This document shows, piece after piece, positions 40,896-59,253 of a stretch of 64,000 nucleotides of DNA. The DNA lies in assembly GCA_016214955.1 (NCBI GenBank), contig JACRMN010000010.1, positions 124,001 to 188,000 of the forward strand, given 5' to 3'. The stretch comes from Deltaproteobacteria bacterium. Lineage in GTDB: Bacteria; Myxococcota; Myxococcia; Myxococcales; Anaeromyxobacteraceae. The position numbers and the translations under genes were made by a program. The notes below the pieces were generated by a model. That model ran no database searches, was not told the DNA's origin, and was given only the letters and a program-made list of their open reading frames with translations. The first letter of the stretch is position 1; every line of letters starts with the position of its first letter.

Positions 40896-42518
40896 CTACA
40901 GCCCCAGCTTCTTGAAGAAGTCGTTCCCCTTGTCGTCCACCAGGATGAAGGCCGGGAAGTTCTCGACCTCGATCTTCCAGACCGCCTCCATGCCCAGCTC
41001 GGGGAAGTCGAGGACCTCCACCTTCTTGATGTTCTCCTCGGCCAGCACCGCCGCCGGGCCGCCGATGGAGCCGAGGTAGAAACCGCCGTGCTTCTTGCAG
41101 GCGTCGGTCACCTGCTGGCTGCGGTTGCCCTTGGCGATCATCACCAGCGAGGCGCCGTTGGCCTGCAGCAGGTCCACGTAGGAGTCCATGCGGCCGGCCG
41201 TCGTCGGGCCGAAGGAGCCCGAGGGCTTGCCCGGCGGCGTCTTGGCCGGGCCGGCGTAGTAGACCGGGTGCTTCTTCAGGTACTCGGGCACGCCCTTGCC
41301 CTGGTCGATGAGCTGCTTGAACTTGGCGTGGGCGATGTCGCGGGCCACCACCAGCGTGCCGGTGAGCAGGAGCGGCGTCGAGACCGGGTGCCGGGAGAGC
41401 TCGGCCACGATCTCCTTCATGGGCCGGTTGAGGTCGACCTTCACCCCGTGCTCGTGCTTGCCGGTGCGGTAGGGCGCCGGGATGAGCCGGCCCGGGTCGT
41501 GGTCCAGGTCCTCCACCCAGAGGCCGTCCTTGTCGATCTTGGCCTTGATGTTCCGATCGGCCGAGCAGGAGACCCCCATGCCCACCGGGCAGGAGGCGCC
41601 ATGGCGCGGCAGGCGAACCACGCGGACGTCGTGGGCGAAGTACTTGCCACCGAACTGGGCGCCGACGCCCAGCTTGTTGGCGGCCTCGAGCAGCGCCGCC
41701 TCCAGCCCCAGGTCGCGGAAGGCCACGCCGAAGTCGCCGCCGGTGGTGGGCAGGGCGTCGTAGTACTTGGTCGAGGCCAGCTTCACCGTCTTCAGGTTGG
41801 TCTCGGCCGAGGTGCCGCCGATGACCACGGCGATGTGGTAGGGCGGGCAGGCTGCGGTGCCCAGGTACTTCATCTTGTCGACGAGGAACTTCTCCAGCTT
41901 GCCGGGCTCGAGGAGCGCCTTGGTCTCCTGCCAGAGCATGGTCTTGTTGGCCGAGCCGCCGCCCTTGGCCACGAAGAGGAACTTGTACTCGGCGCCCTTG
42001 GCCGCGTAGAGGTCGATCTGCGCCGGCAGGTTGTTGCCGGTGTTCTTCTCCTCGAAGACATTGAGGGCGGTGGTCTGGGAGTAGCGGAGGTTCTCCTTGA
42101 CGTAGGTCTCCCAGATGCCCTGGGAGATGAACTCCTCGTCCTTCACCCCCGTCCAGACCTGCTGGCCCTTCTTGCCCACCACCGTGGCGGTGCCGGTGTC
42201 CTGGCAGATGGGCAGCTCGCCGCGGGCGGCGATCTCGGCGTTGCGCAGGAAGGCCAGGGCCACGCCCTTGTCGTTCTGCGAGGCTTCCGGGTCGCCGAGG
42301 ATCTTGGCCACCTGCTCGTTGTGCTCCTTGCGCAGGAAGAAGGAGCACTCGCGCATGGCCTCCCGGGCCAGCCGCGCCAGCGCCGACGGCTCGACCTTGA
42401 GCATCTCCTTGCCCTCGAAGCTGCCGACCGAGACGCCCTCCTTGCTGACCAGCCGGTAGCGGGTCTCGTCCTTCGAGAGCGGGAAGGGGTCGTGGTACTC
42501 GAACACGGGCGCGGCCAT
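40896..42518 (-). CDS. fumA: Fumarate hydratase class I (iron-sulfur)
   Basis: 540 residues, the usual length of FumA/FumB-type enzymes that interconvert fumarate and malate in the TCA cycle. The three cluster Cys are visible in [24 protein letters not shown] and [10 protein letters not shown]. Other motifs: [12 protein letters not shown] and [17 protein letters not shown] at the C-terminal beta part. ATG at 42518 follows GGAG. Class I fumarases are oxygen-sensitive, fitting an organism with anaerobic capacity. fumA and fumB cannot be told apart here. Confidence 0.92.
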
Positions 42519-43042: not shown

Positions 43043-46000
43043 ATGACCCGATACCTTGCGGGCGCCCATGCGGCGTTCACGGCCGTGCTCTGCGCGGCAT
43101 TCTCCGCCATCCCCTCGACCGCACAGGCCGCCGTCAGCTGCGTGCGCACCGTCACCGCCGACGTCGTCGCCCTCGACCAGCCGCTGATGTGGAACCGGCT
43201 CGGGGCCCAGAACATCAACGGCGCCGTCTTCGCGCTGCGCAGCGACGTGCGCAACCGCGACTCCGGCCTCCTGCTCGGCCAGGGCGGCGCGCCCATCCCC
43301 GGCCGCGTCGCCATCCGCGCCGACAAGCGGCCGCGCCCGCTGGTGCTCCGCGTCGCCGCCGGCGACTGCCTGCAGGTGACCTTCCAGAACCTGCTCACGC
43401 CGGCCGCCGCCAACCCCTTCAACCCCCTCCTCACCGTCGAGGGCCAGACCTTCGCGGTGCCCCTCATCGACGACCAGGTGGCCGACCGCTACGCCAGCTT
43501 CACCGTCTACGGGATGCAGCCCCTGAACTCCATCGCCGACACCGCCTCCTACGTGGGCGTGAACATCAACAGCGTCGCCGCCCCCGGCGAGACCCGCACC
43601 TACACCTGGTACGCCGAGAAGGAGGGCACGCACCTGGTGAACAGCCACGGCGCCACCTTCGGCGGCCAGGCCGGCGCCGGCAACAGCTCCTCGGGCCTCT
43701 TCGGGCAGGTGAACGTCGAGCCCCCCGGCGCCCGCGTCTACCGCTCCGACGTCACCGAGGAGGAGTTCCGGCTCGCCACCCGCTTCACCGACCCGGCCTC
43801 GGGCCTGCCGGTCATCGACTACGAGGCCCGCTACCCGAACGTCGAGCCCTGGATCACCGAGGGGAGGGCCGGCCTGCCGGTACTCAACCTGATCGACCCG
43901 GCCACCAACCGGACCATCCACACCGAGATCAACGCCATCGTCGCCGGCCCCAACCCCGACGGCACCTTCCCGGCCTCGACCTACCCGCTGGAGAGCGTCG
44001 GCAAGCGCAACCCCACCGTGCCCAACCGGCTCGAGCCCTTCCGCGAGTTCGCCTCGGTCTTCCACGACGAGGTGGCGACCTCGCAGGCCTTCCCCGCCTT
44101 CTACAACCACCCGGTGCTGCGCCACACGCTCAAGGGCGTGGGCGACAACTTCATGATCAACTACGGGTCGGGCGGCATCGGCTCGGAGATCATCTCCAAC
44201 AGGCTGGGCGTCGGCCCCATGCACGACTGCCTCGACTGCTCCTACGAGGAGTTCTTCCTCACCAGCTACGCGGTCGGCGACCCTGCCCTGCTGGTGGACG
44301 TCCCCGCCAACACCGGCCTCGAGGCCTGCGCCCCCGGCGGCGCCGGCTGCGCCGCGGTGGGCCCCAAGGCCACCCGGGCCCTGTTCCCCGGCGACCCCTC
44401 CAACGTGCACCACTCCTACACCGGGGACTTCACCAAGTTCCGCAACGTCCACACCGGCAAGGAGCACCACATCTTCCACCTGCACAACCACCAGTGGCTC
44501 TTCAACGCCTCCGACGACAACGGCAACTACCTCGACGCCCAGGCCATCGGGCCCGGCTCCGGGTACACGTACGAGATCAACTTCGGCGGGTCCGGCAACC
44601 GCAACAAGAGCGCCGGCGACGCCATCTACCACTGCCACCTGTACCCGCACTTCGCCATGGGCATGTGGTACCTGTGGCGCAACCACGACGTGCTCGAGAC
44701 CGGCACCCGGCTGGCGGTGACCCCGGTGGACGCCGGCGGCAACCCCGGCTACCACACCACGCCCTTCGCGCTCCAGGACGGCACCCCGGCGGCCGGCGCG
44801 CGCGCCCTGCCCGACGGCGAGATCGAGGTGGGCGTGCCCATCTCGGCGCTCGTCCCCCTGCCCGGCAAGCCCCTGCCTCCCCTGCCCGGCCGCGTCGAGG
44901 TGGTGCCCAAGGTGGCCACCGACCTCGCCGGCGTGCAGCGCGTGGTCGGTAGCCTGGCCCGGGTGGTGGACCGCAACGTGAACCCCGGCTTCCCGTTCTG
45001 GGTGGCCAGCATCGAGGACGTGGTCGGCCAGCGGCCCACCACTCCGCCGCTCGACATGTGGGCCGGCGCCGGCGGCTGGGACGGCGGCCTGCCGCGCCAC
45101 GCACTCCAGGGCGTCGCCGACGGCGGCACCACCCACATCAACAACGTCAGCCCGCACAGCTTCGACAAGGTGATGGCCCAGGCCAAGCCGGTCTTCTTCC
45201 CCGAGGAGGGTACCGACGTCGAGAAGACGGCGATGGCCTTCCACGCCCGCAAGTACCACCCCAGCATCCAGTACGACATGGCCGGCAACGTCACCAGCCT
45301 CGACGGCACCGAGGCCCAGGGCGGCTTCCGCACCAACGGCAACGGCCTCCCGGTCACCGCCGCCAGCAACGACCTCCGCGCCGGCGGCCCCTTCTCCGTT
45401 CCCTGCATCGACGACAACGGCAGTCTGCTGCGCTCGGGCGTGGTGGGCAGCTTCTTCAGCGGCGAGACCCTGGCCGGCAGCCCCAAGAGCGTCAGCGGCA
45501 GCTCGCCCTACAACATCGACCGGCCCCGCATCTACAAGGGCGCCAACTTCCAGTACGACGCGGTGCTCAACAAGGCCGGCTACCACTACCCGCAGCAGCG
45601 CATCGTCGGGCTGTGGGAAGACGTGATGCCGACCATCCTCAAGCAGCGGCCCGGCGAGCCGCTGGTGATGCGCAACAACACCTTCGACTGCACCCTCTAC
45701 CACCACACCAACCTGGTCCCGACCAAGTTCCAGCTCGACGACTTCGAGGTCGAGACGCCCACCGACATCATCGGCCAGCACATCCACCTGCCCAAGTGGG
45801 ACCTGACCACCACCGATGGCGCGGCCAACGGCTGGAACTACGAGGACGGGACCCTGGCCGCCCAGGCGGTGCAGGAGCGCATCCACGCCATCAACGCCTG
45901 GAACGGCGCCGCGGCCCAGGCCGCCGCCGCCCTGCCCGGCGCCGGCATCGCCCCGGTGGCCACCCTCGACGGCCAGACCTCGCTGACCGCCAAGCCCCAC

Positions 46001-48937
46001 CCCTTCTTCGGCGCCTTCGGGCGGCCCGACTGGCTGGGCGCCCGCGTCACCCTGCAGCGCTGGTTCTTCGACCCGGTGGTGAACGTGGACGGCGTCGATC
46101 GCGGCCTGGGCATCATCTTCACCCACGACCACTACGGCCCCTCCACGCACCAGCAGATCGGTCTCTACTCCACGGTGCTGGTGGAGCCGGCCGGCTCGCG
46201 CTGGGTCCACAACGAGACCGGCCAGGCGCTCCACACCCGCGCCGACGGCGGCCCCACCAGCTGGCAGGCGGCCATCCTCACCGGCCAGACCCCGGGCTAC
46301 ACCTACCAGTACTCGGGCGCCGACATCGACGGCGACGGCCTCAACGACAGCTACCGCGAGTTCTACTTCGAGTACTCCGACTTCCAGAGCGCCTACCTGC
46401 CGGGCGTCTACGTCGGCGCCAACCAGGACGGCACCACCGGCGAGGCCGCCGGCAAGGCGCCGGGCGCCCCGGGCGGCTCGACGCCGATCGGCCCCAACAC
46501 CTTCCGCGCCGCCATCAAGCCCTCCACCGAGATCGCGGTGGGCGCTGCCGAGATGTTCCCGCTGCTCACCCGCTCCTCGCCGGTCTGCCTGGGCGGCGTG
46601 CCGCGCCCCTGCCCCGAGGCCATCTCCCTCGACGACCCGGGCACCTGGGTGGTGAACTACCGGAACGAGCCGCTGGGCCTGCGCGTCTACGACCCCAACA
46701 AGCTCGGCCCGGATGGCAAGCGCGGCATGCAGTCCGACGGCTTGGCGGGCGACCTGGCCTACGCGCTCGACAGCCGCACCGACCGCCGGTTCGAGGCCAC
46801 CGCCACCTTCGGCCCCATCAACCGGCAGAACGGGCGGCGGCAGGTGCTGAACGCCCAGCCGCGGGCCGGCGACACCATCGTCGCCGCCCAGCTGCCCGCC
46901 GGCGTCACCGTGGAGCCCACCCGCTTCCCGCCGCCCATCAACGCCGGCGGCGTCAACCCCGGCGACCCCTTCACGCCCATGGTCCGCGGCTACTTCGGCG
47001 ACCGCATGCGCATCAAGGTCCAGGCCGGCGGCGACGAGGAGACCCACAACGTCGTCATCCACGGGCTGAAGTGGCTCCAGTCCGGCTCCGGGTTCGGCTA
47101 CTCGCCCAACTCCGGCTGGCGCAACGCCCAGCAGGCCGGCATCTCCGAGCAGTTCACCTTCGCCGCCCCCATCACGCCGCTGCTCCGCAACGGCGGTTTG
47201 GCCGACTACGCCTACACCATGTCCAACGACCAGGACGGCTGGTGGTACGGCGTCTGGGGCCTGCTCCGCACCTACCGCGACGCCCGCGCCGACCTCTTCC
47301 GGCTGCCCAACACCACCACCCTGACGGTGGCCAACCGGACCGACTTCCGCTTCGGCGTCTGCCCCCAGACCGCCCCGGTCCGCACCTACGACGTCAGCGC
47401 GGTGCTGGCCAACAGCGTCATGCCCAACAACATCGACGGTCTGGGGACCCGGGCCACCATCCCGGTGGCGGCCACCTCGCGCATCGCCCAGATGCAGGTG
47501 GGCGCCGCGCTCAACGCCAGCGGCGGGACGCTGGTCTACAACCCGCGCCAGACGCAGGTGAGCTTCCCGGTGGCGGCCGAGCCCGGCCTGCCGCCTCCGC
47601 CTGCCCAGGCGCCGCAGTTCGGCCCGCTCCACGACCCGACAGCCATGATGTACGTCCGCACCGCCGACCTCGACGCCGCCGGCAAGCTGCTGCCCGGCGC
47701 CCCCGTCGAGCCACTGGTGCTCCGCGCCCGGGCCGGCGAGTGCCTCCGCATCACCCTGCGCAACAGGCTGCCCGCCCTGGCCCCCGACCTGGCCGGCTAC
47801 CGGCAGGTCGCCCACGTGGTCCCGCGCGACGTCAACGACCCGCAGGGTGTGACCCAGTTCGAGTACAACCTCATGCGCCCCTCGAGCTTCGTCGGCCTGC
47901 ACCCGCAGCTCCTGAACTTCGACATCGAGAACGGCGGCGTGGCCGTGGGCAGCAACCCCCCGGGCAACGCACTGACCTCGCCGAATCTCACCACGGTGGT
48001 CACCTGGTACGCCGGCGACGTCAGCCTGGTCCCGACGGCCACTCCCGGCACCTTCCTGGCGCAGGGCACTCCGGTGGAGTTCGGCGCCGTGGGCCTGAGC
48101 CCGGCCGACATGCTGAAGCAGGCCACCAAGGGGCTCTACGGCTCGCTCATCGTCGAGCCCGCCGGCGCCCTCTGGGAGGAGACCGACGTGGCCATCGACA
48201 GGCAGAACAACCTGGGCGGCCTCCGCGCCAGCCGGGCCTCGGTCACCGTCAACGGCTCGGTCCGCAGCCTCTCCAACATGTGGCACAAGGGGCTCAGCCT
48301 GCTCTACCGCAGCGGCGCCCCCGTCGGCAGCGTCATGGGCGAGGGCCCGGTGGCCGAGGACACCTACGAGGGCGGCAGCTACAGCGTGAACTACGGCGCC
48401 GAGCCGCTCTGGTTCCGCTTCGGCGTGGCTCCGGAGACGCCGCTCACCGGACCGGGCAGCCTCGCCAAGATCCCCAACGCCCACGAGGCCTACTCCAACG
48501 TCCTCACCGGCGGCCTGGACCCGGTCACCCCGGTCTTCACCGCCCTGCGCGGAACGCCGGTGAAGATGCACCTCACCCAGCCGGCCTCCAACGGACGCGG
48601 CTCGGTCTTCACGCTTGCCGGCCACTCCTGGCAGCGGGCGCCCTACGTCTGCCCCGGCTCCTCGAAGGACGGGCTGCCAGGCCGCTGCCAGCCCTCGGGC
48701 TTCTACCCGTCGATGACCGGCGCCGGCGGAGCGTACGAGGTCGGCTCGCGGGCCCTGGGCGACAACCTGCAGTCCCAGGTCCTGTCGGCCCAGGAGTCGG
48801 TCCTGCCGGGCGCCCACTTCGACTTCGTGCTCCCGAGCGCGGGCGGAGCCAACGCCATCCCGGGCGACTACCTGTTCCACGACCGGGCGGCCACGGGAAA
48901 CCTGCAGGGCCTGTGGGGCATCCTCCGCGTCGAGTAA
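43043..48937 (+). CDS. Giant exported multicopper oxidase-like protein (MofA/OmpB type)
   Basis: 1964 residues with a signal peptide ending AQA (about residue 29). Copper motifs: HHIFHLHNHQW (475-485) and AIYHCHLYPHFAMGMW, where Cys531, His536 and Met541 would form a type 1 site and the His pairs a trinuclear site. Further candidate motifs: YHHTNLVPTKFQ, GQHIHLPKWD, FTHDHYGPSTHQQIGLYSTV, ETHNVVIHGLKW and, near the C-terminus, FTLAGHSWQ and GDYLFHDRAATGNLQGLWGI. Very long multicopper proteins of this kind include Leptothrix MofA, Pseudomonas MnxG (manganese oxidation) and Geobacter OmpB (reduction of insoluble metal oxides). A role in extracellular metal redox is inference. Start chosen for signal peptide and GGAGG upstream. 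A terminator follows, so it can be made independently of the downstream operon. Confidence 0.82.
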   Translation: MTRYLAGAHAAFTAVLCAAFSAIPSTAQAAVSCVRTVTADVVALDQPLMWNRLGAQNINGAVFALRSDVRNRDSGLLLGQGGAPIPGRVAIRADKRPRPLVLRVAAGDCLQVTFQNLLTPAAANPFNPLLTVEGQTFAVPLIDDQVADRYASFTVYGMQPLNSIADTASYVGVNINSVAAPGETRTYTWYAEKEGTHLVNSHGATFGGQAGAGNSSSGLFGQVNVEPPGARVYRSDVTEEEFRLATRFTDPASGLPVIDYEARYPNVEPWITEGRAGLPVLNLIDPATNRTIHTEINAIVAGPNPDGTFPASTYPLESVGKRNPTVPNRLEPFREFASVFHDEVATSQAFPAFYNHPVLRHTLKGVGDNFMINYGSGGIGSEIISNRLGVGPMHDCLDCSYEEFFLTSYAVGDPALLVDVPANTGLEACAPGGAGCAAVGPKATRALFPGDPSNVHHSYTGDFTKFRNVHTGKEHHIFHLHNHQWLFNASDDNGNYLDAQAIGPGSGYTYEINFGGSGNRNKSAGDAIYHCHLYPHFAMGMWYLWRNHDVLETGTRLAVTPVDAGGNPGYHTTPFALQDGTPAAGARALPDGEIEVGVPISALVPLPGKPLPPLPGRVEVVPKVATDLAGVQRVVGSLARVVDRNVNPGFPFWVASIEDVVGQRPTTPPLDMWAGAGGWDGGLPRHALQGVADGGTTHINNVSPHSFDKVMAQAKPVFFPEEGTDVEKTAMAFHARKYHPSIQYDMAGNVTSLDGTEAQGGFRTNGNGLPVTAASNDLRAGGPFSVPCIDDNGSLLRSGVVGSFFSGETLAGSPKSVSGSSPYNIDRPRIYKGANFQYDAVLNKAGYHYPQQRIVGLWEDVMPTILKQRPGEPLVMRNNTFDCTLYHHTNLVPTKFQLDDFEVETPTDIIGQHIHLPKWDLTTTDGAANGWNYEDGTLAAQAVQERIHAINAWNGAAAQAAAALPGAGIAPVATLDGQTSLTAKPHPFFGAFGRPDWLGARVTLQRWFFDPVVNVDGVDRGLGIIFTHDHYGPSTHQQIGLYSTVLVEPAGSRWVHNETGQALHTRADGGPTSWQAAILTGQTPGYTYQYSGADIDGDGLNDSYREFYFEYSDFQSAYLPGVYVGANQDGTTGEAAGKAPGAPGGSTPIGPNTFRAAIKPSTEIAVGAAEMFPLLTRSSPVCLGGVPRPCPEAISLDDPGTWVVNYRNEPLGLRVYDPNKLGPDGKRGMQSDGLAGDLAYALDSRTDRRFEATATFGPINRQNGRRQVLNAQPRAGDTIVAAQLPAGVTVEPTRFPPPINAGGVNPGDPFTPMVRGYFGDRMRIKVQAGGDEETHNVVIHGLKWLQSGSGFGYSPNSGWRNAQQAGISEQFTFAAPITPLLRNGGLADYAYTMSNDQDGWWYGVWGLLRTYRDARADLFRLPNTTTLTVANRTDFRFGVCPQTAPVRTYDVSAVLANSVMPNNIDGLGTRATIPVAATSRIAQMQVGAALNASGGTLVYNPRQTQVSFPVAAEPGLPPPPAQAPQFGPLHDPTAMMYVRTADLDAAGKLLPGAPVEPLVLRARAGECLRITLRNRLPALAPDLAGYRQVAHVVPRDVNDPQGVTQFEYNLMRPSSFVGLHPQLLNFDIENGGVAVGSNPPGNALTSPNLTTVVTWYAGDVSLVPTATPGTFLAQGTPVEFGAVGLSPADMLKQATKGLYGSLIVEPAGALWEETDVAIDRQNNLGGLRASRASVTVNGSVRSLSNMWHKGLSLLYRSGAPVGSVMGEGPVAEDTYEGGSYSVNYGAEPLWFRFGVAPETPLTGPGSLAKIPNAHEAYSNVLTGGLDPVTPVFTALRGTPVKMHLTQPASNGRGSVFTLAGHSWQRAPYVCPGSSKDGLPGRCQPSGFYPSMTGAGGAYEVGSRALGDNLQSQVLSAQESVLPGAHFDFVLPSAGGANAIPGDYLFHDRAATGNLQGLWGILRVE

Positions 48938-48955
48938 GCGCGGGTTGACGAGTGA

Positions 48956-48991
48956 CGACAGGCGTGCCCTGCGGGGCACGCCTGTCGCTTT
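48956..48991 (+). terminator. Strong terminator after the multicopper gene
   Basis: Perfect 14-bp stem CGACAGGCGTGCCC/GGGCACGCCTGTCG with a 4-base loop, followed by CTTT. It lies 19 bases after the stop codon and would separate the multicopper transcript from the downstream operon, or lower its readthrough. Confidence 0.85.
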
Positions 48992-49066
48992 CCGGCGAGA
49001 GCCCCCGGGGATCGTGGGGCTGCGGTGGCCGGCTGGGCTCCCTTAGATTGACGGTCACCAACGGTT

Positions 49067-49076
49067 GGAGGAGGGG
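49067..49076 (+). promoter_or_regulatory. Ribosome site setting a TTG start
   Basis: GGAGGAGGGG ends 4 bases before TTG at 49081. It supports the TTG start over the in-frame open region that begins at 48952 and overlaps the terminator. Confidence 0.7.
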
Positions 49077-49080
49077 CACC

Positions 49081-51081
49081 TTGGCGAGCACGAGAACGAT
49101 GGCGGCCGGCATCCTGATGTCGGTCGGCCCGTGGGTCTGGGCCGGGTGCAAGCCCACCCCGCCCCCGGCCCCTCCGCCCTCCGCCGAGACCGCCGCGGAA
49201 CCCTCGCCCGGCGCGCGGAGCGTGACACGCAACGGCGTCACGGTGGACTTCACCCTGGCCCCGTCCGGTGCTCCCGCCGGCGAGTCCCAGGCCCGGCTCC
49301 TCGAGGGGGACTGGGCCGAGGTCCGCTTCCGCATCCGCGACGAGGCCACCGGCCAGCCGGTGCGCGGCCTCAAGCCGGCCGCCTGGATGGACATGGGCGA
49401 GGTCATCGAGGGCAAGGGCGGCGACCGGAAGGACTGCCGGGAGAAGATCGGTCTCTACCTCAAGGGCATCGTCGGCATCCGCCCGCTCATCGACCTCAAC
49501 GCCTACTACCTGCTGGTGATGAACCAGGCGCCCAGCATCTCGGTCATCGACCCGGTGGTGAGCATGACCGGGACCACCAGCCTCTACGCGCAGGTGTTTC
49601 TGAAGCGCCCGGGCGAGGACTGGGTGAAGAGCCGGAACGGCCGCCGCCTCTTCGTCTCCATGCCTCTCGCCGACGAGGTGGCGGTGGTGGACACCGAGAC
49701 CTTCCGGCTGGAGGCCTCGCTGCCGTCCGGCGCCCGGCCCGTCCGCACCGCCGTCCAGCCCGACGGCCGCTACCTGTGGGTGGGCAACGACGCCGCCTCC
49801 GCCGGCGCCAGCGGCGTCACCGTCCTCGACGCCGAGAAGCTCGTCCGGGTGAAGTTCCTGCCCACCGGCCGTGGCCACCACGAGATCGCCTTCAGCGGCG
49901 ACGACCGCTGGGCCTTCGTCACCAACCGCGACGACGGCACCGTCTCGGTGGTGGACGTGCGCAAGCTCCGGAAGGTGAAGGACCTGCGCACCGGACCGCT
50001 GCCCATCTCCGCGGCCCACTCCCCGCTCTCGGGCGCGATCTACGTCGCCGACGGGCGCGAGGGGAGCGTGGCGGTCATCGATCCCGAGCGGCTCGAGGTG
50101 ACGGCGCGGGTGGCGCTCCAGCCCGGGCTCGGGCCGCTGCGCATCTCGCCCGACGGCCGCTGGGCCTTCGTGGTGAACACCGCCGAGAACGCCGTCCACG
50201 TCATCGACACCACCGTTAACCGGGCGCTCCACACCATCCCGGTGCCGGGCAAGCCCTACCAGGTGATCTTCACCCGGGCCTTCGCCTACGTGCGCCTCCT
50301 CGACTCGGAGCGGGTGCAGATGATCAACCTGTCGCTCGTCGGCGAGGGCAAGGCGCCGGGCACCCAGAGCTTCGTCGCCGGCAACGTGGCCCCGCGCCAG
50401 GCCGGCACGCTGGCCATCGCCGACTCCATCGCGCCGGCCAACCTGGAGGCCGCGGTCTTCGTCACCAACCCGGGCGACAGCTTCACCTACTACTACATGG
50501 AGGGCATGAACGCCCCCATGGGCAGCTTCTCCGGCTACGGGCAGCGCACCCGCGCCTCGACGGTGGTGGACCGCAGCGTCAAGGAGGTGGAGCCCGGGAC
50601 CTACCTGGCCCGCGTCCGCCTCCCGGCCGCCGGCCGCTACGACGTGGCCCTGCTCCTCGACAGCCCGCGCCTGCTCCACTGCTTCTCCGCCGAGGCCGGC
50701 GAGAACCCCGCCCTGCACGTGGGCGAGCGGCCGCTGCGGGTGGAGTTCCTCGACCCGCCCGCCGAGGCAGCGGCCGGCGGCAAGGTGGCGCTCCGCTTCA
50801 AGCTGGTGGAGGCGCGCACCGGCAAGGTCCAGGCCGGCGTCACCGACGTCGCCGTGCTCTCCTTCCGGGCCCCGGGCTTCGACCGCGAGCAGACCGCCGC
50901 GCGCGAGGAGAGCCCGGGCGTGTACCAGGCCCAGGTCGCCCTCCCCGCCGCCGGCACCTACTACGCCTACGTCGGCGCCCCCTCCCTCGGCCTCCGGCCC
51001 GAGGAGACCCCCTACCGCACCATCCGCGCCACGGCCCCCGCCGCCGGCGGAAAGGACAGCCATGCCGCTCGCGCTCCCTAA
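49081..51081 (+). CDS. YVTN-type beta-propeller lipoprotein
   Basis: 666 residues from TTG 49081, with a lipobox-like SVGPWVWAGC. After a Pro-rich linker comes a small domain (about 50-190), then a seven-bladed YVTN-like propeller (about 190-430): RRLFVSMPLADEVAVVDTET, YLWVGND, WAFVTNRDDGTVSVVDVRKL, IYVADGREGSVAVIDPERL and WAFVVNTAENAVHVIDTTVN. The C-terminal third has two Ig/FixH-like beta domains. Cytochrome d1-like propellers without heme are common next to copper redox proteins. First gene of the SCO/cytochrome operon; it overlaps the next gene by 20 bases. Possibly a docking or scaffold protein. Confidence 0.83.
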   Translation: MASTRTMAAGILMSVGPWVWAGCKPTPPPAPPPSAETAAEPSPGARSVTRNGVTVDFTLAPSGAPAGESQARLLEGDWAEVRFRIRDEATGQPVRGLKPAAWMDMGEVIEGKGGDRKDCREKIGLYLKGIVGIRPLIDLNAYYLLVMNQAPSISVIDPVVSMTGTTSLYAQVFLKRPGEDWVKSRNGRRLFVSMPLADEVAVVDTETFRLEASLPSGARPVRTAVQPDGRYLWVGNDAASAGASGVTVLDAEKLVRVKFLPTGRGHHEIAFSGDDRWAFVTNRDDGTVSVVDVRKLRKVKDLRTGPLPISAAHSPLSGAIYVADGREGSVAVIDPERLEVTARVALQPGLGPLRISPDGRWAFVVNTAENAVHVIDTTVNRALHTIPVPGKPYQVIFTRAFAYVRLLDSERVQMINLSLVGEGKAPGTQSFVAGNVAPRQAGTLAIADSIAPANLEAAVFVTNPGDSFTYYYMEGMNAPMGSFSGYGQRTRASTVVDRSVKEVEPGTYLARVRLPAAGRYDVALLLDSPRLLHCFSAEAGENPALHVGERPLRVEFLDPPAEAAAGGKVALRFKLVEARTGKVQAGVTDVAVLSFRAPGFDREQTAAREESPGVYQAQVALPAAGTYYAYVGAPSLGLRPEETPYRTIRATAPAAGGKDSHAARAP

Positions 51082-51733
51082 TCCCCGCCTCGCCGCCGCG
51101 CTCCTCGCCCTGCTCGCCGCCCCGCCGGGCCTAGCCGGGGAGGCGGCCGGCAAGGAGGGCTGCGCCCACTGCGACGCCGAGAAGGCCCGGGCGGCGGAGC
51201 GGCGCCCCGCCTCGGCGGCCGACGCCTCGGTCACCCTGGTGGACCGCACCCTCCGCGATCAGGACGGCAGGGCGGTGCGCTTCCCGCGAGACGTCATCGG
51301 CAGGGACGTGGTGGTGATGGACTTCGTCTTCACCCACTGCACCACCGTCTGCCCGGTGCTCTCCGCCAAGATGGCCCGCCTGCAGCAGCTCCTCGGCGAC
51401 CGGCTGGGCAAGGGCGTGCGGCTCGCCAGCCTGAGCCTGGACCCGGTGCGCGACACCCCCGAGCGGCTCAAGGCCTGGGGCGCCCGCTTCCGCGCCGGCC
51501 CCCACTGGCAGCTCGTCACCGGCGCCCAGCCGGACCAGGAGGAGGTGCTCCGCGGGCTCGGGGCCTACGTCCCCGACTTCGCCAGCCACTCGCCGCTGCT
51601 GCTGGTCGGCGACGGAGCAACCGGCCGCTGGGTCCGGGTCAACGGCTTCCCCGACCCGCAGAAGGTGGTGGCTCTGGTGGACGAGCTCCGGGCCGGCCGC
51701 CACGCCAGCGCCGCGCGGCCGGAGAGGAACTGA
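51062..51733 (+). CDS. SCO1/SenC-family copper chaperone 1
   Basis: 223 residues, exported. The SCO copper site is complete: Cys93 and Cys97 in FTHCTTVCPV, and His176 in FASHSPLLLV. SCO proteins insert copper or reduce thiols in cytochrome oxidase CuA and other copper proteins. No cytochrome oxidase genes are nearby, so the multicopper protein is the likely client. Unusual: a second pair of Cys (Cys34, Cys37 in GCAHCDAE) just after the signal peptide. ATG follows GGAAAGGA. Confidence 0.88.
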   Translation: MPLALPNPRLAAALLALLAAPPGLAGEAAGKEGCAHCDAEKARAAERRPASAADASVTLVDRTLRDQDGRAVRFPRDVIGRDVVVMDFVFTHCTTVCPVLSAKMARLQQLLGDRLGKGVRLASLSLDPVRDTPERLKAWGARFRAGPHWQLVTGAQPDQEEVLRGLGAYVPDFASHSPLLLVGDGATGRWVRVNGFPDPQKVVALVDELRAGRHASAARPERN

Positions 51734-51735
51734 CG

Positions 51736-52362
51736 GTGGGCCGCCCCTTCCTGGCGCTCGCCGCGCTCCTGCTCTGGGCACCCGCCGCTCAGGCGGCGCC
51801 CCGGGCCGCCCGCCCCCTCACCGAGGCCGAGTCGGAGGCCAAGGCCCGCAAGTACTTCACCGACACCGTGCTCCTCACCCAGCAGGGCAAGAAGGTCCGC
51901 TTCTACAGCGACGTGCTCAAGGACCGCGTGGTGGTGGTGAGCTTCATGTTCTCGCAGTGCACCGACGCCTGCCCGCTCCTCACCCAGAAGCTCCGCCGGG
52001 TGAAGGACGGCCTGGGCGACCTCTTCGGCAAGCCGGTGCGCTTCGTCACCATCAGCGTGGACCCGGTCAACGACACGCCCGAGGCCTGGCGCAAGTACGC
52101 GGAGCGCAACCAGGCCGTCCACCCCGAGTGGCTCTTCCTCACCGGCAAGAAGGCGCAGGTGGAGGCGGTGATCCGCAAGCTGGGCGAGCTCGGCCCCTCG
52201 GTGGAGGCCCACTCCACCACCTTCCTGGCCGGCAACACCATGACCCGCCACTGGACCAAGATCCGCCCGGACGCGCCCGCCGAGGCGGTGGTGGAGCACG
52301 TGCGCCGGCTCGCCGGCGAGGGGCTGGGCGGCGCGCCGGCCGAGGCGCGCGCCAACCGGTAG
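51736..52362 (+). CDS. SCO1/SenC-family copper chaperone 2
   Basis: 208 residues with a signal peptide ([14 protein letters not shown]). Cys75 and Cys79 in [11 protein letters not shown] and His159 in [11 protein letters not shown] complete the copper site. It differs clearly from the first SCO protein, so this is not a recent duplication. It may handle a different copper centre or act as the thiol reductant for its partner. GTG start 2 bases after the preceding stop, with GGAGAGGA before it. Confidence 0.87.
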
Positions 52363-52364
52363 CC

Positions 52365-53912
52365 ATGCGCCGCGCCCTGGCCCTGGCCCTGCTCCCACTG
52401 GCCGCGGCCGCGGCCGACGGACCCCTCCTCTCCCCCCAGGAGGAGGCCGGCCGGCTCATCTACACCCAGGGGCGCAGCCCCTCGGGCGCCGAGCTCCGCG
52501 GGCTGGTGGGCCAGGAGGGCACCGCCGTGCCGGCCGAGGCAGTGACCTGCGCCGGCTGCCACGGCGACGACGGCCTGGGGCGGCCCGAGGGAGCCGTCGA
52601 GCCCTCGGTCATCACCTGGTCGAAGCTCACCACGCCCTACGGCGTCACCCACGGCGCCGGCCGCAGCCACCCTCCGTACGACGAGAAGGCGGTGGCGCGG
52701 GCCATCACCGCCGGCGTCGACCCGGCCGGCAACACCCTCGACTGGACCATGCCGCGCTACTCGATGCCGGCCGAGGACGTGCGCGCCCTGGTGGCCTACC
52801 TCAAGCGGCTCGAGACCCGCTCCGATCCCGGCATCACGCAGGCCTCCGTCCGCCTGGGTACGGTGCTCCCCGACCGCGGCCGCCTGGCGCCCACCGGGCT
52901 GGCGCTGCGGGCCGTGCTCGAGGGCTTCCTCGCCGACGTGAACGGCGAGGGGGGTATCAACGGGCGCCGGCTGCTGCTGGAGGTGGCCGGTTACGACAGC
53001 GACGCCGGCGACGGGCTGGCCGAGGCGCGCCGGCTGGTGGAGGGCGGCCGGGTGACGGCGCTGCTCTCGCCCTACGCGCCCGGCGCCGAGCGCGCGCTCC
53101 GGGAGCTGGCCGAGGCGGCCCGCATCCCGGTGGTCGGCCCCTTCACGCCGCTCACCCCGCCTCGCCCCGGCACCCACGTCTTCTACGTGGTGGCCGGGAT
53201 CGGGGAGCAGGCCCGCGCCCTGGCCGAGCACCTGGCGCGCGCTCCTGGCGGTGGCCGCGTCGCCCTGCTCCACGCCCGCGAGGAGCCGCTCGAGGAGGCC
53301 GCCCGCGCCGCCCGCGCCCAGCTCGCGGCGCGCGGGGGCGGCGAGCCGCTGGTGCGGAGCTTCCCGGGCGGCAGGCTGGAGCCGGCCCTGGCCCGGCGGC
53401 TGGCGGCCAGCGGGGTGAAGCGGCTGCTCTTCCTCGGCGGCGACGCCGACCTCTCCACCCTGCTCCGCGCCTGCGCCGGCGCCGGCTTCGCGCCCCAGGT
53501 CCTGGTTCCGGGCGTGCTGGTCTCCGGCGCCATCGCCGGCGCGCCGCCCGACTTCAGGGGCGGGCTGCTGGTCGCCTACCCCACCGGGCCGGCCGACGAG
53601 CGGCCCGCGGCGGCCACCCGCTTCGCCCGAATGCAGGGCCCGTCGCGCGCCGAGCCGCGGCTCCGGGGGGCGCAGGTCTCTGCCTACGCCTCGGCAGCGG
53701 CGCTGGCCGAGGCCCTGCGCCGGACGGGCCGCAACCTGAGCCGCGAGCGGCTGCTGAAGAGCCTGGAGGGGCTGGTCGAGTACGACACCGGGCTCGCCCC
53801 CCGCCTCACCTTCGGGCCGGGCCGGCGGGTGGGCGTGCAGGGCGCCCACCTGGTGGCCGTGGATCCCCGGGCGCGCACCCTCTCACCCGTCGGCTTCCAG
53901 CGAGCCGACTGA
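52365..53912 (+). CDS. Cytochrome c fused to a periplasmic ligand-binding domain
   Basis: 515 residues, signal peptide first. Residues about 25-150 are a monoheme class I cytochrome c: CAGCH at 62-66, axial Met likely 129 or 134 in MPRYSM. Residues about 160-510 are a type I periplasmic binding protein (LIVBP/Peripla_BP_6): [33 protein letters not shown] and [19 protein letters not shown]. No ABC permease is adjacent. The binding domain may position the heme near a partner or sense a ligand. Leptothrix mofC is, as I recall, also heme-binding. Its TGA overlaps the next ATG by one base. Confidence 0.85.
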
Positions 53913-54883
53913 TGCGCGCGCGCCGCCTCGCCCCCGCCCTGCTGCTCCTCGGCCTGCTGGCGCCGCCGGCCCGGGCCCAGATCCCGGGGCTGGCCGCCCG
54001 GGTGAACGGACGGCCCATCACCAACGAGCGGCTGGAGCGCTTCTTCGAGGAGTACGCCACGGAGAAGGGGCGCAGCCCGGCCGCCATCTGGCAGCCGGGC
54101 CCCTTCAAGAAGGCGAAGCGGGAGGCGCTCGATCAGCTCGTCGAGCAGGAGGTGCTGTACCAGGAGGCCGAGCGCCGGAGGCTCACCGCCACACCCGCCG
54201 AGGCCGAGCAGGCGGTGGCCGTCCTCCGGGCGAGGTTCAAGAAGCCCGACGCCTTCGCCCGACGCCTGGAGCGGAGCGGCTTCGACCAGGCCGGCTACCA
54301 GGAGTACGTCCGGCGACAGCTCTCGATCCGCAAGCTCCTCGAGCAGGAGACCGCGGCTGCGCGCCTCTCGGTGGACGACGACGAGGTGCGAGCCTTCTAC
54401 GCCGCGCGCCCCGACCTCTTCACGGAGCCGGAGCGGATCCAGGTGCGCCACGTGCTCCTGGCCGCGCCCGCAGGCGCGTCCGAGGTCGAGCGCAAGAAGG
54501 CCCGCCGGGCCGCCGAGAAGGTCCGCACCGCCGCCCGCCGGCCGGGCGCGGACTTCGCCGCCCTGGCCCGCGCCCACTCGCAGGACCCGAGCGCCGCCGC
54601 GGGGGGCGACCTGGGCTTCATCGCGCGCGGACAGATGGTGGCGCCGTTCGAGGCCGCCGCCTTCGCGCTCCGGCCCGGGGAGATCTCCCCGGTGGTGGAG
54701 ACCGTCTTCGGCTTCCACGTTATCCAGGGCGGGGAGCGCCGCCCCGGCGGCCAGGTGCCCGAGGAGCGGGCCCGTGAGCCCATCCGGCAGCGGCTGCTGG
54801 GCGAGAAGATCGAGCGCCACCGCCAGGACCGCATCGCCGCCCTTCGCGGCGCGGCGCGGATCGAGATCCTGGTCCCCCTCTAG
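53912..54883 (+). CDS. PpiC/SurA-type peptidyl-prolyl isomerase
   Basis: 323 residues, exported ([16 protein letters not shown]). N-terminal SurA-like helical part ([18 protein letters not shown]), then a parvulin domain (about 170-270): [51 protein letters not shown] and [10 protein letters not shown]. It helps fold exported proteins. In this operon the obvious client is the 1964-residue multicopper protein. A prolyl isomerase gene (mofB) also follows mofA in Leptothrix, as I recall. Confidence 0.88.
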
Positions 54884-54899
54884 CCCGCAGCGAGCGTCC

Positions 54900-55664
54900 A
54901 TGAACCGGAAGACCGTCGCCCTCGCCGCCGCCGCCGTCCTCGCCCTCGGGGCCGTGGCCGGCTGGCTGGTCGCTCGCGAGCCGCAGGGCCCCAGCGCCCC
55001 GGACGCCCCGCCCCGCCCTGCCCCGCCCGTCGAGATCGCCCGCGAGCGGCCGCCCCCACCGGTGGATCCGGCCCAGCTCGATCGGCAGGCGCAGATCAAC
55101 GCCTCCCGCGACCAGTTCCTCTCGCTGCGGGTGGCGTTCGAGGGCGGCCGGCCCGACGAGCGCTCGCGCGCCCGGCTCGAGCCGGCGCTGCGCCAGCTCT
55201 GGCCCGGCCCCGCCCCGCGCTGGAGCGCCCCGTGCCGCAGCCGGGTCTGCCGGGTGGCCGTCGAGCAGGCGCCGCCCGGCTGGGCGGAGGCGCTCCGCGA
55301 CGCGCCGGCGGTGAGGGCCATGGCCGACCGGGTGGCCCCCGACCCCGACGGGCCAGAGGCCGTCGCCTTCGTGCTCCTGGCGGCCGAGAACGCCCCCAGC
55401 GGCGCGCCGGCCCTCGAGGAGGTGGAGCAGCGCCTGGCGGCCTCGTCGCGGGTCGGCGAGTGCCTCCGCTCCGCGACCCAGGCGGGCACGGTCGAGTACG
55501 AGCTCTTCGTCGACACCACCGGCATCACCTACGTGCGCGGCGGGACGGCCGACGTGGCCACCCAGACGTGCGTCGAGGATCAGCTCGCCGAGATCATCAA
55601 CACGACGGCAACTCCGGCGAAGGTGAAGAGCGAATCGCGCCGCATCTCCCTGCGCACCCGCTGA
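54900..55664 (+). CDS. AgmX/PglI-like C-terminal domain protein
   Basis: 254 residues. One N-terminal membrane helix (VALAAAAVLALGAVAGWLVA), a Pro-rich linker, and a C-terminal region GTVEYELFVDTTGITYVRGG then CVEDQLAEI, resembling the TonB-like C-terminal domain seen in myxobacterial AgmX/PglI proteins. Two conserved-looking Cys pairs (CRSRVC near 112; C near 202 and 235). Last gene of the tight operon; 16 bases after the isomerase. Function unknown; periplasm-spanning is possible. Confidence 0.68.
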   Translation: MNRKTVALAAAAVLALGAVAGWLVAREPQGPSAPDAPPRPAPPVEIARERPPPPVDPAQLDRQAQINASRDQFLSLRVAFEGGRPDERSRARLEPALRQLWPGPAPRWSAPCRSRVCRVAVEQAPPGWAEALRDAPAVRAMADRVAPDPDGPEAVAFVLLAAENAPSGAPALEEVEQRLAASSRVGECLRSATQAGTVEYELFVDTTGITYVRGGTADVATQTCVEDQLAEIINTTATPAKVKSESRRISLRTR

Positions 55665-55931: not shown

Positions 55932-58127
55932 ATGACATTCACCAACGGTGTATCCCGCCTGGGCGTTGCCCTGGCCGGGCTGGCCATCTGCATGCCTGCA
56001 CTCGCCGCGCTGAAGGACCGCGGTCCCGTCGATCCCGCCACCGGCTTCCCCGTCTGGTACCGCGACAGCGGCATCCCCGCGACCGCGACCGGCGCCGCCG
56101 TTCCACCCCAGGCGCTCGAGCTCTGCCTGGCGCAGACCCCCTCGCCCAACCCCGGTGCCGGCGGCGCCCCCATGTGCTTCCCCTGGGCCCCCGACCCGGC
56201 CGGCTTCCCCGGCAACCTGGGGGACGAGCAGTTCTGGGCCGTGGCCGACGCCATCGCCGTCGGCGGGTTCGGCTCCGCCCGCCTGGTGACCGCCCTCGAG
56301 GCGGCCTACGCCACCGGGACCCCGGTGCGCGGCCAGGAGATCTCCTTCGCCCGCATCCGCCTCGTCGTCGACGTCAATCCCGGGTTCGAGGGCACCTACG
56401 TCATCACGCACCCCTACGGAGTCGAGATCTTCCCCGGGGTCGGGGCCGGCAACCGGGCGATCACCTTCACCAACGACGTGGGCGCCACCGGCGTGCAGTT
56501 CGACGGCGCTCTCGCCGGCGCCGTCGGACCGTTCCTGCGCTGGGACTCCATCCCGCCGGGCATGACGCTGACCATCGCCACCGCCAGCGGGCTCGAGGAG
56601 TACCTGGGCGATCCCAACCTGCTGCACACCGTCACCGGCAGCCCCTTCGGGACCAACTTCTTCCGGGTCGACGTCTTCGACGCCGGCGGCGTGCTCATCG
56701 ACTCGGTGACGCAGCCCGAGTTCACGGTGGTGGGCAAGAAGTACCTGCAGCCCATCGCCACGCCGCTGAAGATCCAGCGGGCCACCTACTCGCGCACCGC
56801 CACCGACTCCTCGGTGGACGTCTTCGCCCTGGCCAACCCCGGCCAGCAGCTGGTGCTCTCCGGCACCGGGCTCGCCAACACCGTCATGACCACCAGCGGC
56901 ACCTCCTACCTCTCCCACAGCGTGCTGCCCTTCGACGCCCTGCTGCCGCAGTCGATCACGGTGACCAACACCACCGACGTCCCTGCCAGCGCCTTCTCCG
57001 CCCCGGTCACCGACCTCGTGACCATCACCGACGCCGTCTACGATCCGGCGGGCGGCTCGCTGGTCGTCACCGCCACCTCCAGCGACGCCTCGGCCGCGCC
57101 GCCGGGCCTGGTGGTCTCCGGCCTCGGGCCCATGGTCGGCGGCCTCTTCACCAGCACCACCGCCGGGCCGGTGCCGCCGGAGAGCGTCACCGTGGTCTCC
57201 TCCGCCGGCGGCAGCGCCACCCGCCCCGTCCGCCTGCTGCTCACCGCCGGTGGCGGGGCAGGCAGCGCCGACGTGGCCGTCAACGACAGCGCCTCCACCG
57301 ACTTCAACACCGCCGTCACCATCGACGTGCTCGGGAACGACAGCCAGCCGGTGCCGGTGGCCGCCGTGGTCATCACCTCGCCGCCCCAGCACGGCACCGC
57401 CGTGGCCGGGACCGGCGCGGCCCTGGGCACCGTCGTCTACACGCCGGCGGTCAACTACTCCGGCCCCGATGCCTTCGCCTACGTCCTCCAGGACACCGCC
57501 GGCGCCCTCTCCAACACCGCCTCGGTGACCGTCACGGTGGTCTTCGTCCCGGTGGCCCCGACCGCCAACCCCGACACCGCCGCCACCGCCGCCGGCATCG
57601 CCGTCACCATCCCGCTGCTCGCCAACGACACGGCGGCGGTCGGCACCACCATCCTCCCGGCCACCGTCGCGCTCGGCGCGGTCTCGCCCGCCGGCGCTGG
57701 CACGCTGACATGGTCGGCCGCCACCGGACTCGCCACCTTCACCCCGGCCGCCGGCTTCAGCGGCACCGCCACCTCGAGCTACACGGTTCAGAACAACTAC
57801 GCGCAGACCTCGGCGCCGGCGAGCATCACCGTGAACGTGGCCCCGGCGGCCGACGTCATCAACATCACCCGCGCCGAGTACCGCACTCGCACCGGGATCT
57901 GGCGCGTGGACGGCACCTCGACCAGCACCGCGGCCGGGACCACCGTCACCATCTACAACGGCTCCACCACCGCGGCGCCCGTCCTGGCCGCCGACGTTCC
58001 TGTGGTGGCGGGAGCCTTCTCCTGGACCTCGGCCACCGGCGCCCCGGCGCCCTCGGCCACCCGCCTCATCCTCATCCGCTCCACCGCGGGCGGGAGCCGC
58101 GTGGCCGCAGTGACTGTCCGCAACTGA
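55932..58127 (+). CDS. Large secreted protein with cadherin/Ig-like repeats
   Basis: 731 residues with a signal peptide (GVALAGLAICMPALAA). Residues about 30-280 form a domain I do not recognise, with WYRDSGIPATA and FLRWDSIPPGMTLTIATASG. Several Ig-like or cadherin-like domains follow: VNDSASTDFNTAVTIDVLGN, YTPAVNYSGPDAFAYVLQD and a second copy PDTAATAAGIAVTIPLLAND. Such proteins sit on the cell surface or are secreted. It follows the multicopper operon by 267 bases, with its own ribosome site GGAGGG. Mature protein is very low in Cys. Confidence 0.8.
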   Translation: MTFTNGVSRLGVALAGLAICMPALAALKDRGPVDPATGFPVWYRDSGIPATATGAAVPPQALELCLAQTPSPNPGAGGAPMCFPWAPDPAGFPGNLGDEQFWAVADAIAVGGFGSARLVTALEAAYATGTPVRGQEISFARIRLVVDVNPGFEGTYVITHPYGVEIFPGVGAGNRAITFTNDVGATGVQFDGALAGAVGPFLRWDSIPPGMTLTIATASGLEEYLGDPNLLHTVTGSPFGTNFFRVDVFDAGGVLIDSVTQPEFTVVGKKYLQPIATPLKIQRATYSRTATDSSVDVFALANPGQQLVLSGTGLANTVMTTSGTSYLSHSVLPFDALLPQSITVTNTTDVPASAFSAPVTDLVTITDAVYDPAGGSLVVTATSSDASAAPPGLVVSGLGPMVGGLFTSTTAGPVPPESVTVVSSAGGSATRPVRLLLTAGGGAGSADVAVNDSASTDFNTAVTIDVLGNDSQPVPVAAVVITSPPQHGTAVAGTGAALGTVVYTPAVNYSGPDAFAYVLQDTAGALSNTASVTVTVVFVPVAPTANPDTAATAAGIAVTIPLLANDTAAVGTTILPATVALGAVSPAGAGTLTWSAATGLATFTPAAGFSGTATSSYTVQNNYAQTSAPASITVNVAPAADVINITRAEYRTRTGIWRVDGTSTSTAAGTTVTIYNGSTTAAPVLAADVPVVAGAFSWTSATGAPAPSATRLILIRSTAGGSRVAAVTVRN

Positions 58128-58326: not shown

Positions 58327-59253
58327 ATGGCCATCCGCACCTCCGCCGCGACCGCCGCCTCGCTCCTGGCCCTGCTCGCCGCCTGCGGCGGCGGCGACCC
58401 CGCCATGCCCGCGGCGAACCCTCCGCCGCCCTCCACCTCACCGCAGGTCCAGGGGATCTCGCCCGGCGCTGGCCCCACCGCGGGCGGGACCACCGTCACC
58501 ATCGCCGGCAGCGGCTTCGTGACCGGGAGCACCGTGACCTTCGGCGGCGTCGCCGCCCCGGTGGCCGGGCCGGCCACCGCCACCTCCCTCTCGGTCGTGG
58601 CGCCGGCCCACGCCGCCGGCCCGGTGGACGTGCGGGTGGTGAACCCCGACGGCCAGGCCAGCACCTCGGCCAGCCCCTACACCTACCTCTCGCCCGCGCC
58701 CCAGATCCTGGCCCTCAACGTCCGCGGCGGGCCGCCGGCCGGCGGCACCCAGGTGCTGGCGGTGGGCTCGGGCTTCGAGCCGGGCGTGACGGTCGCGGTG
58801 GGCGGCCTGGCGGCCACCGGCGCCACCATCGTCGCCCTGGGGCCAGGCTCGCTGGCGGTGAGCTTCTTCACCCCGCCGCACGCCGAGGGGTTCGCCGAGG
58901 TGGTGATCACCAACCCCGACGGCCAGGGCGCCAGCTACTCCAGCTTCCACTACGGGCCGCCTCCGGCCGTGGACGCCGTGGCCTGCAGCGCGGGCTGCGG
59001 CTCGGTCCGCCGGGACGACCTCGTCACCTTCACCGGCAGCGGGTTCACCACCGCGGCCGGCGAGGGCGTGCAGGTCCTCTTCAGCTCGGTGGACCGCCCG
59101 CAGAAGGCGGTGGCGGTCCTGGTCTCGGCGAGCCCCACCGAGCTGGTGGTCCAGGCGCCGCGGCTCGACCCCGGGCTCTACTCGCTGGTGGTCTCCAACT
59201 TCGACGGCCAGTACGACGTGGCCGCCGCGCAGCTCACCTACCCGGCGCCGTAG
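58327..59253 (+). CDS. IPT/TIG-domain lipoprotein
   Basis: 308 residues with a lipobox ([11 protein letters not shown]). Three IPT/TIG beta-sandwich repeats follow: [40 protein letters not shown] and [18 protein letters not shown], each with the typical GxGF strand. Such repeats mediate surface binding or assembly. The ribosome site GGAGGG lies upstream of ATG. It ends the run of secreted proteins next to the metal-redox operon. Confidence 0.83.

Follow-up and report, generated by a model that had tools for sequence, protein, structure and literature searches.

An MnxG-type operon, probably for manganese(II) oxidation, in the Anaeromyxobacteraceae and the unnamed secreted protein family that co-occurs with it

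Bacteria that oxidise manganese have a part in shaping the cycles of metals and carbon. In Bacillus, the Mnx complex includes the small partners MnxE and MnxF besides MnxG, a giant multicopper oxidase with a chain of 1227 aa (PDB 9bxa). Leptothrix discophora has the mof genes (mofA, mofB, mofC), in which an isomerase gene and a cytochrome c gene are close to that of a giant multicopper protein (PMC8218464). In Pseudomonas putida GB-1, deletion work designated MnxG as the dominant Mn oxidase (PMC11930936); the operon comprises mnxG, a YVTN propeller, two SCO1/SenC proteins, an ABC substrate-binding protein with cytochrome c and SurA (PMC11409713, Table 4), the same kind of operon being drawn in PMC8218464 (Fig. 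2c).

Such a gene run is found in the window, i.e. the whole stretch of 64,000 nucleotides analysed here, which comes from a genome of the Anaeromyxobacteraceae (Table 1). From 43043 to 55664, the genes are all present, all on the plus strand and tightly packed, and their translations correspond to exported products, the export and lipoprotein signals being seen by inspection. The sequence-only reading had described this run as a giant multicopper protein, a propeller, two SCO proteins, a fusion and a PpiC isomerase, and translations together with Pfam and NCBIfam domains confirm every one of these parts. Regarding gene starts, the propeller most likely begins at 49099, where a lipobox (VWAGC) is encoded, rather than at 48952, where the frame opens, while the refined start of the fusion gene lies 2 bp past the second SCO gene and that of the 54900 gene 16 bp past the PpiC gene. 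Both SCO proteins combine the SCO1/SenC domain match with a CxxxC motif, as expected of the family, and the fusion protein contains a single CXXCH motif (CAGCH). The last gene of the run had been labelled TonB-like at its C-terminus, for which there is no backing as the protein has no Pfam or NCBIfam match above cut-off. Its homologues (37-43% identity) are restricted to mnx operons of the window's own bacterial family, where the gene is placed elsewhere, between the second SCO gene and the cytochrome fusion, and none was found among the Pseudomonas loci.

Table 1. Coordinates of the predicted features of the mnxG-type locus and of the adjacent genes in the window
Feature	Coordinates	Strand	Evidence and remarks
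MnxG-type giant multicopper oxidase	43043..48937	+	1964 aa, exported; NF041487 match, Bacillus MnxG 9bxa, 12 putative Cu ligands
Lipoprotein YVTN beta-propeller with C-terminal YtkA domain	49099..51081	+	Domain matches; same slot in P. putida operon
SCO1/SenC copper chaperone 1	51062..51733	+	E 4.1e-15; CxxxC = CTTVC
SCO1/SenC copper chaperone 2	51736..52362	+	E 2.5e-18; CxxxC = CTDAC
Monohaem cytochrome c / type I periplasmic binding protein fusion	52365..53912	+	Peripla_BP_6 6.4e-39; Cytochrom_C 9.7e-6
SurA/PpiC-type peptidyl-prolyl isomerase	53912..54883	+	Rotamase 4e-24; SurA_N_3 6.7e-15
Exported protein of no known family	54900..55664	+	Homologues in L042, L043, L044/L051
Secreted protein, unnamed ~440-aa N-terminal region and Big_9/cadherin-like repeats	55932..58127	+	Candidate new MnxG partner
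IPT/TIG-repeat lipoprotein	58327..59253	+	TIG 8.8e-27; adjacent, membership uncertain

The oxidase has an N-terminus resembling a signal peptide and matches the NCBIfam MnxG model (NF041487) over its full length, residues 33-1964 aligning with model positions 1-1894 (E 0, 2262.6 bits). This score is below the equivalog cut-off of 3100 bits, which is passed by all 59 Pseudomonas proteins (about 3800-3930 bits) and by no Myxococcota or Burkholderiaceae protein; judging from its sequence, the protein is best designated as MnxG-type, with no claim to membership in the strict NCBI equivalog. It is about 50-55% identical to Pseudomonas and other MnxG over the full length, and among solved structures its best relative is Bacillus MnxG 9bxa (E 1.5e-60; E 1.8e-132 in a profile search), likewise a giant multicopper oxidase but shorter than the 1964 aa of the window protein. 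No other NF041487 match occurs in the window's genome (5.3 Mb), the other multicopper oxidases found there (L036, L037) not being MnxG-like. One of them, a frame of 1006 aa of another type, lies just past the window end (L036:1274-4294, minus strand); on contig 12 of the same genome (L037:2311-15943), three smaller multicopper oxidase frames form a run together with an SdrD/TIG-domain protein of 1716 aa and a Big_9-repeat subtilase.

The copper motifs HxxHxH (476-481), HCHxxxHxxxxM (530-541), HxH (913-915) and HxH (1028-1030) occur along the chain in the C-D-A-B order of multicopper oxidase motifs, and the HxxHxH, HCH and HxH motifs align to Bacillus MnxG 9bxa. Twelve putative ligands (H476, H479, H481, H530, C531, H532, H536, M541, H913, H915, H1028 and H1030) are invariant in the 29 sequences aligned, and also in a smaller set of 8 relatives. 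From general knowledge of multicopper oxidase motifs and fold, these residues are taken here to form the type 1 and trinuclear copper sites, the predicted ligand set of which is complete. The sequence-only reading had made its proposal conditional on such a trinuclear set: the ligands are all there by sequence, while the AlphaFold2 model of residues 31-1215 (pLDDT 60.3) is too poor for the site to be seen.

Compared with the P. putida GB-1 operon, the window has the same six genes in identical order and strand, with full-length oxidase homology; it differs by an identity of about 50%, by the sub-cut-off score, by the lack of a sigma-54 site and by two additional genes, at 54900 and 55932, that follow the operon, and no curlin gene was found in the genome. 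In a scan of named genomes, for which 80 loci were kept, the order mnxG-propeller-SCO-SCO-cytochrome/binding protein-PpiC appeared in 55, mostly from Pseudomonas, with Stutzerimonas, Aromatoleum/Azoarcus, Caldimonas and Ramlibacter among the other genera; the remaining loci are mostly cut at contig ends, devoid of the isomerase gene or rearranged. Found 55 times among 80 loci, this six-gene order goes far beyond chance. In the relatives from the Myxococcota, the first five genes are conserved and an isomerase gene was found for L043 alone. Gene order, which the sequence-only reading had proposed as a check, is conserved on both counts. This is an already known system, namely an MnxG-type operon, well preserved, in an unexpected phylum. 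That reading was right in relating the giant multicopper protein to manganese oxidases and in placing it in an operon together with the SCO copper chaperones, the PpiC isomerase and the cytochrome, as the NF041487 match and the domains indicate. Its likeness to MnxG stands, whereas OmpB and the Leptothrix mof genes are not the nearest counterparts, Pseudomonas MnxG being the closest system in a comparison that OmpB and MofA sequences lay outside. The idea of a new assembly is ruled out by the published GB-1 operon and the recurrence in 55 of 80 loci; the propeller and the cytochrome-binding protein fusion, then seen as new parts, are not new, since both are annotated as standard members of that operon (PMC11409713, PMC8218464).

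Other giant-oxidase systems are further apart. Beside the window mnxG, no MnxE/MnxF small partner genes were found, the neighbours belonging to other families (propeller, SCO, cytochrome, isomerase). The likeness with Leptothrix lies in gene content, MofA being outside direct sequence comparison, and MofB is a mip-type isomerase whereas that of the window is of the SurA/PpiC type. Sister operons (L045, L046, L048, L049, L181) share the oxidase-propeller-SCO-SCO-cytochrome/binding protein order, but their oxidases (about 1660-1840 aa) are 35-40% identical to that of the window and, in the five cases tested, fall in a clade of their own; in L181, a gene similar to the one at 55932 comes after. 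Regarding the SCO pair, several Myxococcota (L039, L040, L046, L050), sister operons included, encode both proteins as a single fused frame of about 375-407 aa. On the other side of the window mnxG, a class I fumarate hydratase gene (40896-42518, minus strand) is divergent from it; in Pseudomonas DSV-1, a transposon in a fumarate hydratase-type gene slightly lowers Mn oxidation (PMC11409713). This neighbourhood is probably a coincidence.

While the operon parts themselves were already known, what makes the locus interesting is the unnamed, co-inherited family represented by the adjacent gene, at 55932-58127 in the window. The gap of 267 bp between the mnx operon and this gene weighs against assuming co-transcription. 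Neither the N-terminal region of about 440 residues nor any part of the short Pseudomonas form of the family has a Pfam or NCBIfam match (over cut-off for the former). An AlphaFold2 model of 413 residues of this region, built with 27 relatives, is nearly all beta with a pLDDT of 89.8; a Foldseek search of the model against the PDB retrieved weak beta-sandwich/adhesin and Ig-type chains only (query TM about 0.23 or less), and searching PDB sequences with a profile yielded no match. Within the region, C40, C57, E74, E98, H135, D157, D202, D336 and D360 are invariant, for which a metal role would be a guess. A cell-surface or matrix role may be inferred for the protein. A second copy of the family, in a longer frame, is present in the window's genome (G000:C19:378880-380163; L138, L143), and a TIG-repeat protein like the one following the gene in the window also adjoins the homologue of Anaeromyxobacter oryzae (L144:9330-10784).

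The family follows mnxG across distant bacteria. In one sample of 199 Pseudomonas genomes, it is present in all 59 mnxG carriers vs. 2 of 140 non-carriers (Fisher p 9e-49), and these two genomes contain no weaker MnxG match either. In the Myxococcota, it occurs in 5 of 7 genomes with a complete mnxG vs. 2 of about 182 others (p 2e-7), the mnxG and partner samples differing slightly, and in the Burkholderiaceae-level family sample of Caldimonas (351 genomes), in 3 of 5 carriers vs. 1 of 346, a weak match (p 6e-6); all these p-values ignore phylogeny. Among the named mnxG genomes, 23 of 30 have it and all four Hyphomonadaceae lack it. Judging from the association alone, the 55932 family is rather likely to be a dedicated, as yet unnamed, extracellular partner of MnxG-type oxidases in several phyla, e.g. 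a surface scaffold retaining the oxidase or nucleating the oxide, and its genes in Pseudomonas would share the sigma-54 (MnxR) regulon with mnxG. Such a partner of mnxG appears new, the literature search having returned no paper in which Mn oxidation is connected with the 55932 family, curli or cadherin-like proteins. It could still be, as a less probable though serious alternative, that the protein is unrelated to manganese and that the co-occurrence reflects shared ancestry or one co-carried genomic island: both genes lie within about 25 kb in many Pseudomonas, the counts are blind to phylogeny and the Hyphomonas-type mnxG genomes do without the partner. Against this, the association appears in three distant clades and holds where the genes are unlinked (G033, G046, G047), several Pseudomonas having the two genes on different contigs or more than 100 kb apart; besides, the partner gene is inside a giant-oxidase operon in G060 and L052.

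The neighbourhoods are of the same tenor as a dedicated partnership with MnxG. A 55932-type gene is beside mnxG in four other loci; in L052 it comes directly after mnxG, and in G060 (L181:1347-13425) it is the last gene behind those for the oxidase, the propeller, the two SCO proteins and the cytochrome/binding protein, on the same strand after a gap of 86 bp. This latter genome carries at least three giant-oxidase loci. In P. putida 700447 (L173), a pair of 55932-type genes, for proteins of 471 and 753 aa, adjoins curlin and CsgE genes at a distance of about 20 kb from mnxG and is divergent from a histidine kinase and sigma-54 response regulator pair, which by its architecture fits MnxS2/MnxR; in strain DSV-1, MnxS2/MnxR are 26-27 gene numbers away from mnxG (PMC11409713). 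Type II secretion genes lie upstream of mnxG and between mnxG and the curli genes in P. putida 700447, and in GB-1 a Gsp-related pathway is reported, in the title of a paper cited by PMC3056050, as necessary for secreting the Mn-oxidising factor. In G046 and G047, the 55932-type gene also comes after a kinase/regulator pair, a weak point given how common such regulators are. As in L173, the 55932-type gene pairs of L176 and L179 have curlin genes as neighbours and a histidine kinase/sigma-54 regulator in divergent orientation. As for curli being itself a shared mnxG partner, no Curlin repeat was found in the 7 Myxococcota mnxG genomes, including that of the window, which rules this candidate out and therefore makes the curli link a Pseudomonas matter.

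Regarding regulation, rpoN is necessary for Mn oxidation in strain MS-1 (PMC11409713). With a -24/-12 site scored as at least 9 of 11 positions and shuffled sequences as control, 35 of 43 loci have a sigma-54 site in the 400 bp preceding mnxG (vs. 4% of shuffles). For the partner gene, the 600 bp preceding it include such a site in 11 of 22 loci, nearly all from Pseudomonas (vs. 6% of shuffles). In the window, no such site was found upstream of mnxG (best 7/11) or of the 55932 gene.

In the window's family, 4 of the 24 listed genomes carry mnxG, including Anaeromyxobacter oryzae Red232, and the literature search on MnxG in Anaeromyxobacter returned nothing beyond two community studies containing both words. 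In a quick tree with SH-aLRT support only, the window gene groups (92) with those of A. oryzae, two more genomes of the family and a Methylococcaceae record (MnB_9), while other Myxococcota mnxG genes are placed near Beta- and Gammaproteobacteria (83). Such a topology suggests, without proving it, horizontal transfer of mnxG.

Taken with the operon, the sequence makes manganese oxidation the best reading of the locus, and it is very likely that the window contains an MnxG-type manganese(II)-oxidase operon. The apo-oxidase would be exported and kept foldable by the SurA/PpiC isomerase, then loaded with copper by the SCO pair. Electrons from Mn(II) would enter the mature enzyme at the type 1 copper (H476, C531, H536, M541) and reach the putative trinuclear site (H479, H481, H530, H532, H913, H915, H1028, H1030), where O2 would be reduced; the product, Mn(III/IV) oxide, would stay outside the cell. 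The cytochrome c/binding protein fusion and the propeller lipoprotein would probably serve in electron transfer or maturation, no tested role for either having been found in Pseudomonas itself. With less certainty, the 55932-58127 protein could act as an extracellular matrix or scaffold partner that keeps the enzyme, or the mineral it produces, at the surface of the cell.

Related multicopper oxidases accept other substrates, and the myxobacterial enzyme might follow the same operon logic with e.g. Fe(II), Cu(I) or phenolics instead of Mn(II), as its 50-55% identity to other MnxG, its score below the equivalog cut-off and the absence of a Pseudomonas-type sigma-54 promoter would allow; yet the accessory genes and putative copper ligands are all kept, and MnB_9, named as a Mn isolate or bin, nests beside the window gene in the tree, which makes such a change of substrate improbable. 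Anaeromyxobacter is known for metal reduction, and the metal-oxide reduction part of the sequence-only reading, i.e. an OmpB-like protein acting on insoluble Fe(III)/Mn(IV) oxides, could draw on this kinship and on the c-type cytochrome of the operon, but it is unsupported and very improbable as the end-to-end match is to MnxG (the OmpB sequence itself being outside the comparison), the operon is found mostly in aerobic Pseudomonas, its sole cytochrome has one haem and the gene is missing from most sampled genomes of the family.

With manganese(II) oxidation as the preferred reading, the completeness of a Pseudomonas-type operon in the family of a metal reducer suggests that one lineage may have both halves of the manganese cycle, while the co-inherited unnamed secreted family offers a concrete gene pair for Pseudomonas genetics. 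Besides, mnxG-type genes can occur in tandem, as two or three copies, in L069 and L098 (Pseudomonas jinjuensis and a gammaproteobacterial bin).
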